NCBI RefSeq assembly: GCF_001428485.1
Contig: NZ_LMHS01000003.1
Coordinates: 62,001-126,000, forward strand
Direction of reading: 5' to 3'
Length of the DNA stretch: 64,000 nt
Source of the DNA: Microbacterium sp. Root180
GTDB lineage: Bacteria > Actinomycetota > Actinomycetes > Actinomycetales > Microbacteriaceae
The position numbers and the translations under genes are program-made. The notes below the pieces were generated by a model. It was not told the origin of the DNA. It saw only the letters and a list, made by a program, of their open reading frames with translations, and searched no databases. Shown in pieces: positions 11,272-14,831 of the stretch (position 1 is the stretch's first letter; every line of letters begins with the position of its first letter).

Positions 11272-13245
11272 TCACGGAGTACGCGCGCGAGATCGCACGT
11301 CGCCGCGTCCACCGATGATGACGTACCCGGAGTGCTTCGCCGCGATGCCGTCGCCGGCCTTGCGGCCGTGGAGGCGGCGCCAGACCCAGGGCAGCACGTC
11401 GCGCCCCAGCCACGTTCCCTCCGCCACCGGGTCGTCGTCGACGTGCAGGGCCGCATCGAGGCCGCCCAGGGCCCCGGCGTCCGGGACGCCGAGCGCATCG
11501 GCGGCGCGGTAGGCGAGGAAACGGTGGCCGCGTGAGCGAAGATGCACGCGATCCGACGCCCACAGCTCGAGGTCGCCGATCGCGGGCAGCGACTCCATGT
11601 CGAGCAGGATCGCGCCCGTGTCGGCCGCCACGCGCCTCAGCTCGGAGGCGAAGGCCGCGAATCGCCGTCCGAGCAGCACCGCTGCCCTCCGCCGGGGAAG
11701 GAACGGCGTCACCAGCAGGACGTCGGCGCCGGCATCCCGGAGCGCCCGGACCGACGTCTCGACCTCGGCGGCGAGCGCCGCGATGTCGACGGGGCGCCCG
11801 ACGAGGTCGTTGGCGCCTATGAGGATCGACACCAGGTCGGGGCGCAGCGCGAGGGCGCGAGGCAGCTGCTCCTCGGTGAGGTCGCGCACGCGGCGGCTGC
11901 GGACGGCGAGGTTCGCATAGCGGAACGGCTCCGCGTCCGAGCCCTCATGGGCGAGAAGCTGCGCGAGCCGGTCCGCCCACCCGCGATGCTGCCCCGCGGG
12001 CATCCGCGACGTGTCGCACAGTCCCTCGGTCAATGAGTCGCCCAGTGCGACATACCGCGACCAGCGGGGGCGCGCGGCGGGAGCCGCGGGGGGCGCCGAG
12101 GGCCGGGTCGCAGCCCGCCGGAGCAGCGCGTCGTCGATGGGACGCAGCATCCGTGCGTCTTCGTAGTGCCCGATGAGCTGGCTGCACAGCGCGTCCCACG
12201 TGCGGTGCCGCACGGACTCCTCCGCGGCGGCCGCGAACGCGCGCCGTTTCGCGTCGTCGCCGACCAGGTCGGCCACGCGGGCGCGGAGGTCGCTGAGATC
12301 GCCGGGGCGGTAGAGCCAGCCGTCGATGCTCGAGCGCACCAGATCGACCGGACCCCCCACGCCGGTGGCGACCACGGGGACGCCGCTGGCGAGGGCCTCC
12401 TGGATCGTCTGGCCGAACGTCTCGCTCTCCCCCGGGTGCACGAAGACGTCGAAGCTCGCCAGGGTCTCGGCCAGGGCGGCGCCGCCGAGGTGGCCGGTGA
12501 ACAGCGCACGGGGCAGCATCCGCTCGAGCGCGGGCCGCGACGGACCGTCACCCACGATGACGAGCCGCGTGCCCGGCAGATCCGCGACCGCGGCGAGATC
12601 CTCGACCTGCTTCTCGGGGGCGAGCCGCCCGACGTAGCCGATGACGGTCTCACCGGGGGCGACCTGCGACCGCCAGCGCTCGCTGCGGCGGTGCGGGGCG
12701 AAGCGGACGCTGTCGACGCCGCGACCCCAGCGACGGAGCCGGTCGACCCCGAGCTCCTCGAGCTGGCGCATCGCCGGCGACGACGGCGCGAGCGTGATCG
12801 TCGCACGTCGATGCAGACGCGAGACGTGGCGGCCGACCAGGGAGGTGGCGCGGGGCATCCCGTACTTCCGCGCGTAGGCCACGATGTCGGTCTGGTAGAC
12901 GGCGACCGCGGGCACGCGGAGCGCATCGGCCGCAGCGAGCCCCTGCCATCCCAGCACGAACGGCGACGCCAGGTGGATCACGTCGGGGCGGAAGTCGCGA
13001 AGGATCGCTGTGAGACGGGCGGCACGGGCGAACACCACCCGCACGTCGGGATACCCGGGCAGCGGGACCGAACGCAGCAGCTCGGTGCGGGCACCGTGGA
13101 GGTCGCCGTCGACCTCTCCGGCTCGGGGGGCGATGACGAGCGTGTCGTGCCCTTCGGCTGCGAGGTGGCGCAGGATCTGGAGCACGGACCCCGTCACCCC
13201 GTTCATGTGGGGCAGGAACGATTCGGCGAGCAGTGCGACTCTCAC
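11272..13245 (-). CDS. Fusion of a GT4 glycosyltransferase and an SGNH/GDSL hydrolase
   Basis: One 657-residue frame joins two enzymes. Residues 1-370 form a GT4 glycosyltransferase similar to actinobacterial alpha-mannosyltransferases (MgtA/PimB type): N-terminal LLAESFLPHMNGV, nucleotide-sugar region GYVGRLAPEKQVEDL, and the E-x7-E block ESETFGQTIQEAL (about 273-285). A Pro/Ala linker (382-393) leads to an SGNH hydrolase: GDSL at 402-405, GAND at 477-480, and DRVH at 565-568 for the catalytic Asp/His. It may make and then trim or deacylate a cell-envelope glycolipid; that is inference. I chose the GTG at 13245 by family alignment, though its GGAGG is only one base away; the frame is open upstream to 13320. 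Confidence 0.85.
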   Translation of the reverse strand: MRVALLAESFLPHMNGVTGSVLQILRHLAAEGHDTLVIAPRAGEVDGDLHGARTELLRSVPLPGYPDVRVVFARAARLTAILRDFRPDVIHLASPFVLGWQGLAAADALRVPAVAVYQTDIVAYARKYGMPRATSLVGRHVSRLHRRATITLAPSSPAMRQLEELGVDRLRRWGRGVDSVRFAPHRRSERWRSQVAPGETVIGYVGRLAPEKQVEDLAAVADLPGTRLVIVGDGPSRPALERMLPRALFTGHLGGAALAETLASFDVFVHPGESETFGQTIQEALASGVPVVATGVGGPVDLVRSSIDGWLYRPGDLSDLRARVADLVGDDAKRRAFAAAAEESVRHRTWDALCSQLIGHYEDARMLRPIDDALLRRAATRPSAPPAAPAARPRWSRYVALGDSLTEGLCDTSRMPAGQHRGWADRLAQLLAHEGSDAEPFRYANLAVRSRRVRDLTEEQLPRALALRPDLVSILIGANDLVGRPVDIAALAAEVETSVRALRDAGADVLLVTPFLPRRRAAVLLGRRFAAFASELRRVAADTGAILLDMESLPAIGDLELWASDRVHLRSRGHRFLAYRAADALGVPDAGALGGLDAALHVDDDPVAEGTWLGRDVLPWVWRRLHGRKAGDGIAAKHSGYVIIGGRGDVRSRARTP

Positions 13246-13397
13246 GCCTCCAGCGTGGGGGCAGGGCAGCGAGCGGATGCCGCAGACCGGCGTGTGCGCA
13301 CGAGTGTTCACCCGATCCACGCCCGGGTGTCACCTCCCCGACTCTCCGGCGCCGGGCGTTCGCCGGCCGTTCACCGCCGCCTGATACCCAGAGGGAC

Positions 13398-14831
13398 GTG
13401 CTCGAGGATCTGCTCACCGGTGTCGCCGCGAGTCCCTGGGCGCTGCCGCTGCTGTTCGCCCTCGTGCTCGGGGACGCCTTCCTCGTCGTCGTGCCGGGCG
13501 AGGCGGCCGTGACGGCGTTCGGGGCGCTGGCCGTGGCCCAGGGCGAGCCGCCGCTTGGAGCGGTCGTCGCGGTCGCAGCGGTCGCCGCCACGATCGGCGA
13601 TGCGGCCTGCTACCTGGTCGGCCGCACGATCGGGCTCGAGCGATGGCGGTGGATGCGAACGCCGCGCGCGCGCGCGGCGTTCGCATGGTCCCGCGCACGT
13701 CTCGAGCGCCGCGCGGCGCTCGTGCTCTTCACGGCCCGGTTCATCCCGTTCGCGCGGCTCGCGGTGAACCTGACCGCCGGCGCGAGCCGCATCCCGGCAC
13801 CCCGCTATCTCGCGATCGCCGCGTGCGCCGCACTGGCGTGGGCGGGCTACCAGGCCTTCGTCGGGGCGCTCGTCGCTGCGATCCTGCCCGGGGGGCCGGT
13901 GGCGGCCGTCGTCGTGTCGATCGTGCTCGCGGTCGGGATCGGCGTCGCCGTCGATGCCATCCTCGCGCGCCGGCTGCGGCGCGCCGCGGGCGGGGCGGGC
14001 CAGGATGGGGATGTGACAGCAGCGACCGGCTACGACGACGGCTTCCTGGGCATCCCCCTCCCCCTTCCGCGGCCGGTGGGCGATGCGCCGGTGCGCGAGC
14101 TCCCCTACCCGCGGTTCACCGTGCTGCTCGACCCGGTGCGCCGCCTCGCGGCCATGACCGGCGTGAACATCGACGGTGCGATGCTGCAGGACCTGCCCCG
14201 CACCGGCGAGTGGGAGCTCGACCCCCGTGTCCCGGCGTCGGAGCAGGCGGGGCCGGCGGTGTATGCCGACAACGACCTCGACCGCGGGCATCTCGTGCGC
14301 CGGCGCGATCCCGGGTGGGGCACCGTCGCCGAAGCGCGCGCGGCGACCGAGGCGACGTTCTTCTACACGAACGCCGCGCCGCAGGCCGGCGCCTTCAACC
14401 AGTCGAAGGAGCTCTGGCTCGGGCTCGAGGACCACGTGCTCGCGTACGCCGACGCCACCGACCAGCGGGTGAGCGTGTTCACCGCACCGGTTCTCGCCGC
14501 CGACGATCCGCCGTACCGGGGCATTGGCATCCCGCGCCGCTTCTTCAAGGTCGCCGCCTGGTCCGCAGCGGACGACGAGGGGATGCCGCGGCTCGAGGCC
14601 GCCGGATTCGTCCTCGACCAGTCCGAGCTCATCGACGACGCGCAGGGTGTGCTCGAGGTCGAGCGCCTTGGGGCGTTCCGCACGTTCCAGGTGCCGATCG
14701 CCGACATCGAGGCTCTCGCGGGCGTCGACCTCGGACCGCTCGTCGAGGCCGATGTGCTGCCGCGCACGACGCTGCGCGGAGAGGACGCGTGGCGCCCCCT
14801 CCGCACAGCGGAGGACGTGGTGCTCGGCTGA
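13398..14831 (+). CDS. Fusion of a DedA/VTT membrane domain and a DRGH-type DNA/RNA nuclease
   Basis: A 477-residue frame. Residues 1-195 match the DedA (SNARE-associated/VTT) family: four to five hydrophobic segments and the conserved FTARFIPFARLAVNLTAG block. From about residue 206 to 477 it matches the nonspecific endonuclease (NUC1/ββα-metal) fold: NDLDRGHLVRR at 292-302 with the catalytic His298, followed by FYTNAAPQAGAFNQ with the metal-binding Asn. No stop separates the parts, but an in-frame GTG at 14013 (residue 206) lies behind a purine-rich stretch and could start the nuclease alone. The joint ARRLRRAAGG is basic, suggesting a cytoplasmic tail. Confidence 0.82.
   Translation: MLEDLLTGVAASPWALPLLFALVLGDAFLVVVPGEAAVTAFGALAVAQGEPPLGAVVAVAAVAATIGDAACYLVGRTIGLERWRWMRTPRARAAFAWSRARLERRAALVLFTARFIPFARLAVNLTAGASRIPAPRYLAIAACAALAWAGYQAFVGALVAAILPGGPVAAVVVSIVLAVGIGVAVDAILARRLRRAAGGAGQDGDVTAATGYDDGFLGIPLPLPRPVGDAPVRELPYPRFTVLLDPVRRLAAMTGVNIDGAMLQDLPRTGEWELDPRVPASEQAGPAVYADNDLDRGHLVRRRDPGWGTVAEARAATEATFFYTNAAPQAGAFNQSKELWLGLEDHVLAYADATDQRVSVFTAPVLAADDPPYRGIGIPRRFFKVAAWSAADDEGMPRLEAAGFVLDQSELIDDAQGVLEVERLGAFRTFQVPIADIEALAGVDLGPLVEADVLPRTTLRGEDAWRPLRTAEDVVLG

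Follow-up and report, generated by a model that had tools for sequence, protein, structure and literature searches.

Fusion of a DedA gene with a neighbouring nuclease gene in Microbacterium is probably recurrent and unfixed, and probably yields a free as well as a tethered nuclease

When one open frame runs from a membrane protein straight into a nuclease, does the cell use a tethered enzyme, or have two neighbouring genes simply been run together? The question is raised by positions 13398 to 14831 of the stretch of DNA analysed here (the window, 64,000 nucleotides of Microbacterium sp. Root180), where a DedA domain is followed in frame by a nuclease of the ββα-metal type. We approached it by comparing the locus with its relatives in the genus, the family and beyond.

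The fused frame and its domains

The continuity that the original prediction had claimed, from DedA into a nuclease with the motif DRGH, was confirmed. On reading the sequence, the frame is open over 477 aa, from a GTG start to a TGA at 14829-14831, and both domains score above the Pfam gathering scores: 70 bits against 33.9 for VTT_dom (PF09335), and 143.3 bits against 23 for Endonuclease_NS (PF01223), the latter at residues 235-449 (the features are collected in Table 1). Upstream of GTG 13398 the frame is mechanically open as far as GTG 13233 (532 aa). The alignment of relatives begins at the equivalent of 13398, where several of them have a start codon behind a Shine-Dalgarno-like stretch, and we therefore placed the DedA start there and not at 13233. 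At E up to 0.001, PF01223 matches once and VTT four times in the host genome (3.35 Mb).

Table 1. Features of the fused DedA-nuclease gene, in positions of the window
Feature	Position	Strand	Basis
Fused DedA/VTT and Endonuclease_NS nuclease gene	13398..14831	+	Open frame, Pfam match
Probable Shine-Dalgarno (AGAGGGA) and DedA GTG start	13388..13400	+	Sequence; start common to aligned relatives
DedA domain, VTT_dom core at residues 32-157	13398..13982	+	Pfam; DNA comparison with G299 and G364
Joint: basic tail with a short linker; lacks the DedA stop and the spacer that relatives have	13983..14012	+	Comparison with relatives
Internal initiation site: AGGATGGGGAT Shine-Dalgarno stretch, then GTG (14013-14015)	14002..14015	+	Sequence, relatives
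Nuclease proper (PF01223), 272 aa from GTG 14013; DRGH at fusion residues 295-298	14013..14831	+	

The ββα-metal nucleases carry DRGH and the Asn/Glu motifs of the metal site. DRGH was present in all 180 full-length relatives of the nuclease, N..PQ..N in 173 and W.GLE in 177 of these 180; the window protein has all three, and its catalytic motif is intact. The nuclease profile matched 10 distinct PDB sequences, phmmer with the nuclease sequence gave no match in PDB, and Foldseek with the nuclease half of our structure model gave matches to EndoG and the Serratia nuclease (autotaxin chains score too, with alignments of 250 or more columns and a low TM-score to the target). PDB entries 2o3b and 1zm8, which carry the label 'Nuclease', we take to be Anabaena NucA. 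The fused nuclease thus resembles the Serratia nuclease, NucA and EndoG in profile, Foldseek matches and DRGH, and differs from them in that its domain is joined to a polytopic membrane protein; by eye, no signal peptide was seen to precede this domain. The structure model, built on a 54-row alignment, has a mean pLDDT of 84.1 and a pTM of 0.63, residues 198-207 at the joint fall below pLDDT 50, and the protein is accordingly modelled as two folded domains on a floppy joint.

The DedA half has the VTT domain in common with UptA, the C55-P transporter of the DedA family, and matches the UptA models weakly. An assignment as a UptA-type C55-P transporter was ruled out, the score being 37.9 bits against an NCBIfam equivalog cut-off of 250.

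By the positive-inside rule, basic loops of membrane proteins point to the cytoplasm. A basic stretch follows directly after the last hydrophobic helix of DedA, so it is reasonable to place the nuclease, if made in the fused form, on the cytoplasmic side, as was originally proposed. The hydropathy and charge of DedA, with a long basic loop at 75-106 (10 K+R, 2 D+E), and the N-out topology reported for B. subtilis UptA (PMC11474028) form the further basis for this placement.

Distribution of the fusion among relatives

The whole fusion protein was searched against 366 genomes of the genus, and the following figures are from the matches listed (149 further genomes were searched later; G376, G223 and G265 are not among the loci collected). 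Of the six nearest full-length in-frame matches among those listed, five have one stop between the domains. Five listed genomes (G205, G385, G027, G338 and G119) show 75-79% identity over the whole query and one TGA between the domains, as does G185 at 67% identity; seven others in the list (G342, G313, G254, G139, G138, G142 and G212), at 64-70% identity, have no stop at the joint. The finding that had been proposed as decisive against the fusion, a stop in all relatives, was thus not made: some relatives have a stop at the joint and others have none. For instance, in Microbacterium sp. Leaf288 (G205) and M. yannicii PS01 the gene order and the nuclease initiation site are as in the window, and in Leaf288 the flanking genes are also the same, but in both, unlike in the window, a stop codon and a spacer part DedA from the nuclease.

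We collected 236 distinct nuclease loci, copies being merged by the first 200 nt of their nuclease match; some of these loci belong to other genera and some are paralogues. In 38 of them DedA is on the same strand and no more than 400 nt upstream, and the other 198 lack it in that interval. Of these 198, 37 have it farther upstream (within 3 kb), and in 161 no DedA was found in the upstream DNA examined, an upper bound because the DNA covered is limited (most stretches cover at least about 1.3-1.5 kb upstream of the nuclease; among the 161, 8 have less than 1.3 kb). The two genes form one open frame in 9 of the 38 adjacent pairs, namely in the window, the seven genomes without a stop listed above and G252, or in 8 if the near-copies G138 and G139 count once. 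In the other 29 pairs the two genes are apart or share no more than 20 nt (overlaps of 20, 20, 4 and 4 nt, one of the latter in L363), and among all 38 there was no long out-of-frame overlap of DedA with the nuclease. With fusion in only 9 of 38 adjacent pairs, the arrangement does not qualify as a conserved fusion. The locus of G252 (L330) has the longest distance from DedA match to nuclease among the nine fused frames, 150 nt.

A clear contrast is offered by the gene upstream of DedA (11272-13320, minus strand), which encodes glycosyltransferase family 4 and GDSL/SGNH hydrolase domains. In all 35 Microbacterium loci longer than 8 kb in which both domains were found (34 distinct, Leaf288 being present twice; 33 by rule and 2 by reading the joint), the two share one frame, and the gene therefore encodes a conserved two-domain enzyme. 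This is the pattern of a fusion maintained at the same place, and the DedA-nuclease pair is unlike it.

We also placed the 38 adjacent pairs, together with 14 of the 37 loci with a more distant DedA, in a quick tree of 52 rows made without bootstrap. This tree calls for at least 6 changes of the fused state, at least 4 of them on starred branches, so that fusion arose or was lost repeatedly. The label is nevertheless clustered, as shuffled labels gave a mean of 8.4 changes and a number as low in 3 of 500 shuffles. Fused genes are frequent among the deeper branches, for which an old fusion with later splits is possible. The window groups, on a starred branch, with the unfused G364 and G299, so that its fusion appears from the sequences to be separate from that in the deeper lineages.

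Origin of the joint in the window

Between the DedA 'DA' codons and the start of the nuclease, the window has 35 nt fewer than G364 and 39 nt fewer than G205, and the missing DNA includes the DedA stop; the spacer of G299 is longer than those of the window, G364 and G205. At the DNA level the window is 86-87% identical to G364 in the upstream glycosyltransferase gene and in the nuclease and 74-78% in DedA, and 84-87% identical to G299 in DedA and 79-80% in the upstream gene and the nuclease. The DedA of the window is thus closest to G299 and the genes on both sides of it are closest to G364, a mosaic ancestry, and in a sliding comparison with these two genomes the affinity switches between about 13950 and 14026. 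A recombination or a deletion probably chanced to leave DedA and the nuclease in one frame. The simple alternative named in the original prediction, fusion through a lost DedA stop, is supported by these data, with a stop and a spacer in relatives where the window lacks 35-39 nt. Within the nuclease, a patch near 14251-14475 was observed in which G299 is as close as G364 or closer.

An open frame is weak evidence in a GC-rich genus

Another point to be weighed is how surprising the continuity is. Where DedA is missing from the 400 nt upstream (198 loci), the open nuclease frame reaches upstream over a median of 79 codons, and in 24 of these loci over 205 codons or more, so that continuity by itself is weak evidence for a fusion in this GC-rich genus. 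Such chance openness of GC-rich DNA, or an error of assembly or sequencing, might be thought to explain the fused frame altogether. We regard this as very improbable, as the upstream part is a true DedA domain, other species share the architecture with different joints, and the joint of the window differs by a length change of 35-39 nt relative to G364 and G205 and not by a one-base slip, which makes a simple sequencing slip unlikely.

We further ignored the DedA stop of 28 unfused pairs (L363 was not among them) and read on in three frames. Of these 84 readings, 28 fuse in frame, 31 overlap the nuclease out of frame over a long stretch and 12 over a short one, and 13 end before it. Against this expectation, the probability of seeing zero long out-of-frame overlaps is 0.003, 0.011 or 0.05 for 8, 6 or 4 independent fusion events, respectively. 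The nine in-frame cases and the absence of long out-of-frame overlaps suggest that a fused product is tolerated better than a junk tail; alternatively, the excess may reflect an advantage of the fused product. A long unfolded tail is also conceivable, since in Microbacterium rhizomatis (L154) the DedA frame continues for 768 nt past the DedA match and ends 19 nt before the nuclease match. This locus, the only one of the 37 with a more distant DedA to show it, has either a long DedA tail or a chance open frame.

An internal start for the nuclease

The GTG at 14013, which had been put forward as a possible start of the nuclease alone, is preceded by a Shine-Dalgarno stretch (Table 1), and the proposal gained support from the relatives: unfused genes have the same site, and 8 of 9 fused genes retain the start codon with its Shine-Dalgarno, which is also present in 23 of 29 unfused ones. 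A site was counted when a start codon, ATG or GTG, lay within 12 codons of the nuclease and its Shine-Dalgarno reached -6.5 kcal/mol or better, and 16% of 1520 control stretches from DedA bodies and 10% of 1520 from nuclease bodies contained one. Retention in 8 of 9 has a binomial P of about 3e-6 at 0.158 when shared descent is ignored. The linkers of the fused genes are otherwise little alike, apart from the near-copies and the Shine-Dalgarno itself.

Could the fusion protein be the sole product, with the internal GTG a relic? The Shine-Dalgarno of the window is modest (-7.0 kcal/mol, matched by 23% of 345 DedA-body controls), so that the case for an internal start depends on the whole set of genes, which are kin by descent, and one fused relative (L096, cf046) has a weak one of only -3.4 kcal/mol. 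The retention of start and Shine-Dalgarno in 8 of 9 fused genes despite the turnover of the other linker sequence speaks against a relic, and we give this explanation little probability.

The nuclease would be an independent product in relatives, as indicated by three kinds of loci. Among the best 15 of 80 plasmid records all match in the nuclease part and 13 align from residue 212, ten codons before which point a Cryobacterium nuclease gene is annotated to begin; none of the 80 has one place covering 80% of the query. In G016 (L002/L394) DedA is cut to about its last 68 codons and the nuclease is free of stops. In at least one relative (L133), by eye, a gene on the opposite strand, presumably encoding a fructosamine-kinase-type protein, lies between DedA and the nuclease. 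The free form is therefore probably still made in the window strain as well.

Two further comparisons concerned the linkers. G139 and G138, the only close fused pair, differ by 1 synonymous change in the 27 codons of the linker, 2 synonymous changes in 180 codons of DedA, and 5 synonymous and 4 non-synonymous changes in 266 codons of the nuclease, too few for a test of selection. GC content by codon position over the last 60 nt did not set fused pairs apart from unfused ones.

What the fusion probably means

Taken together, we consider it probable that the window holds one instance of a recurrent but unfixed fusion of neighbour genes, probably with both a tethered and a free nuclease as products. 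Ribosomes starting at GTG 13398 would make the 477-aa protein, in which a flexible linker would attach the nuclease to the last DedA helix at its cytoplasmic end, and ribosomes starting at GTG 14013 would make the free 272-aa nuclease. The latter would be the ancestral product, still under selection, and the tethered form a tolerated by-product; stop losses into the nuclease may be seen only in frame because the added tail is then a folded domain. From the comparison of sequences, the free nuclease is the likeliest to be the product that matters. The fusion is ordinary in kind.

The more ambitious part of the original prediction, a membrane-tethered nuclease acting on incoming DNA, did not fare well. 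It can be put as an adaptive fusion, in which the nuclease is tethered at the cytoplasmic face of the membrane with a DedA lipid transporter as its neighbour; there it would encounter DNA on its way in or be kept under control, and the free form would make up a second pool. The changes of state on the tree (at least 6, at least 4 of them starred), the lack of long out-of-frame overlaps among the 38 pairs and the intact catalytic motif agree with it, and there is a precedent in EndA of S. pneumoniae, described as a membrane-bound DRGH nuclease needed for transformation (PMC9294136). EndA shares with the window fusion a DRGH nuclease at the membrane. However, EndA is described on the membrane surface with external DNA as its target (PMC9294136), and NucM as likewise acting on external DNA, whereas the window nuclease would face inward. 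Moreover, of the 38 adjacent pairs only 9 are fused, five of the six full-length in-frame matches listed as nearest are split, the linkers diverge widely, and in 198 of 236 loci DedA is missing from the 400 nt upstream. The intervening gene in L133, the persistence of the nuclease after the loss of most of DedA in G016, and the absence of any match to PADLOC anti-phage defence models (0 families at E up to 0.1) weaken a role of the tether further, and we think such an adaptive fusion unlikely. Its boldest form is decidedly unlikely, namely that convergent fusion has repeatedly joined a nonspecific nuclease to a DedA lipid transporter at the cytoplasmic end, with the internal start kept, and that the resulting dual-location nuclease (membrane and free) protects the inner membrane face from incoming DNA or serves in controlled nucleic-acid breakdown.

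If a recurrent, unfixed fusion is indeed what the window holds, it shows a gene fusion caught in the act, as the pair is found split, overlapping by a few nucleotides, fused, and with one partner nearly lost, all within one genus. An internal start would let a cell retain the old product after such a fusion. The case is also a warning that in GC-rich genomes an uninterrupted two-domain frame is weak evidence that a fusion is functional. Should the tethered form be of importance, the cell would have a nuclease that is held at the membrane and faces the cytoplasm.

Other contexts of the nuclease domain

A DedA-nuclease fusion was not found among the matches listed in open-licence papers (titles and abstract openings), and phage records searched with the query gave no match. 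Outside Microbacterium, fusions were sought in 398 sampled genomes of the family at E up to 1e-60, and the candidates were dismissed by eye. In G460, nearly full-length, the upstream part does not look like DedA and was taken as a chance open frame; in G505 one hydrophobic helix and a coiled-coil-like stretch, not DedA, are in frame with the nuclease; and in G502 and G431, where a DedA match ran past its stop, no nuclease was seen in the translated stretches (a further stretch of G502, L390, was screened by script only).

Several loci showed the nuclease in other settings. In G033 (L025/L030) the nuclease matches fall in two separate pieces (query 5-183 and 193-271, at 547261-547791 and 547017-547250 on the minus strand), so that this gene may be frame-shifted or broken. 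The G505 locus (L337, another genus of the family, minus strand) encodes a hydrophobic helix, a coiled-coil-like stretch and a Pro/Ala linker followed by the same nuclease, by eye a second, different membrane-type extension. On the Paenibacillus polymyxa plasmid p-YT9A (L402) a related nuclease domain makes up the C-terminal end of the product of a gene about 1.8 kb long, and other N-terminal partners of this domain therefore exist.
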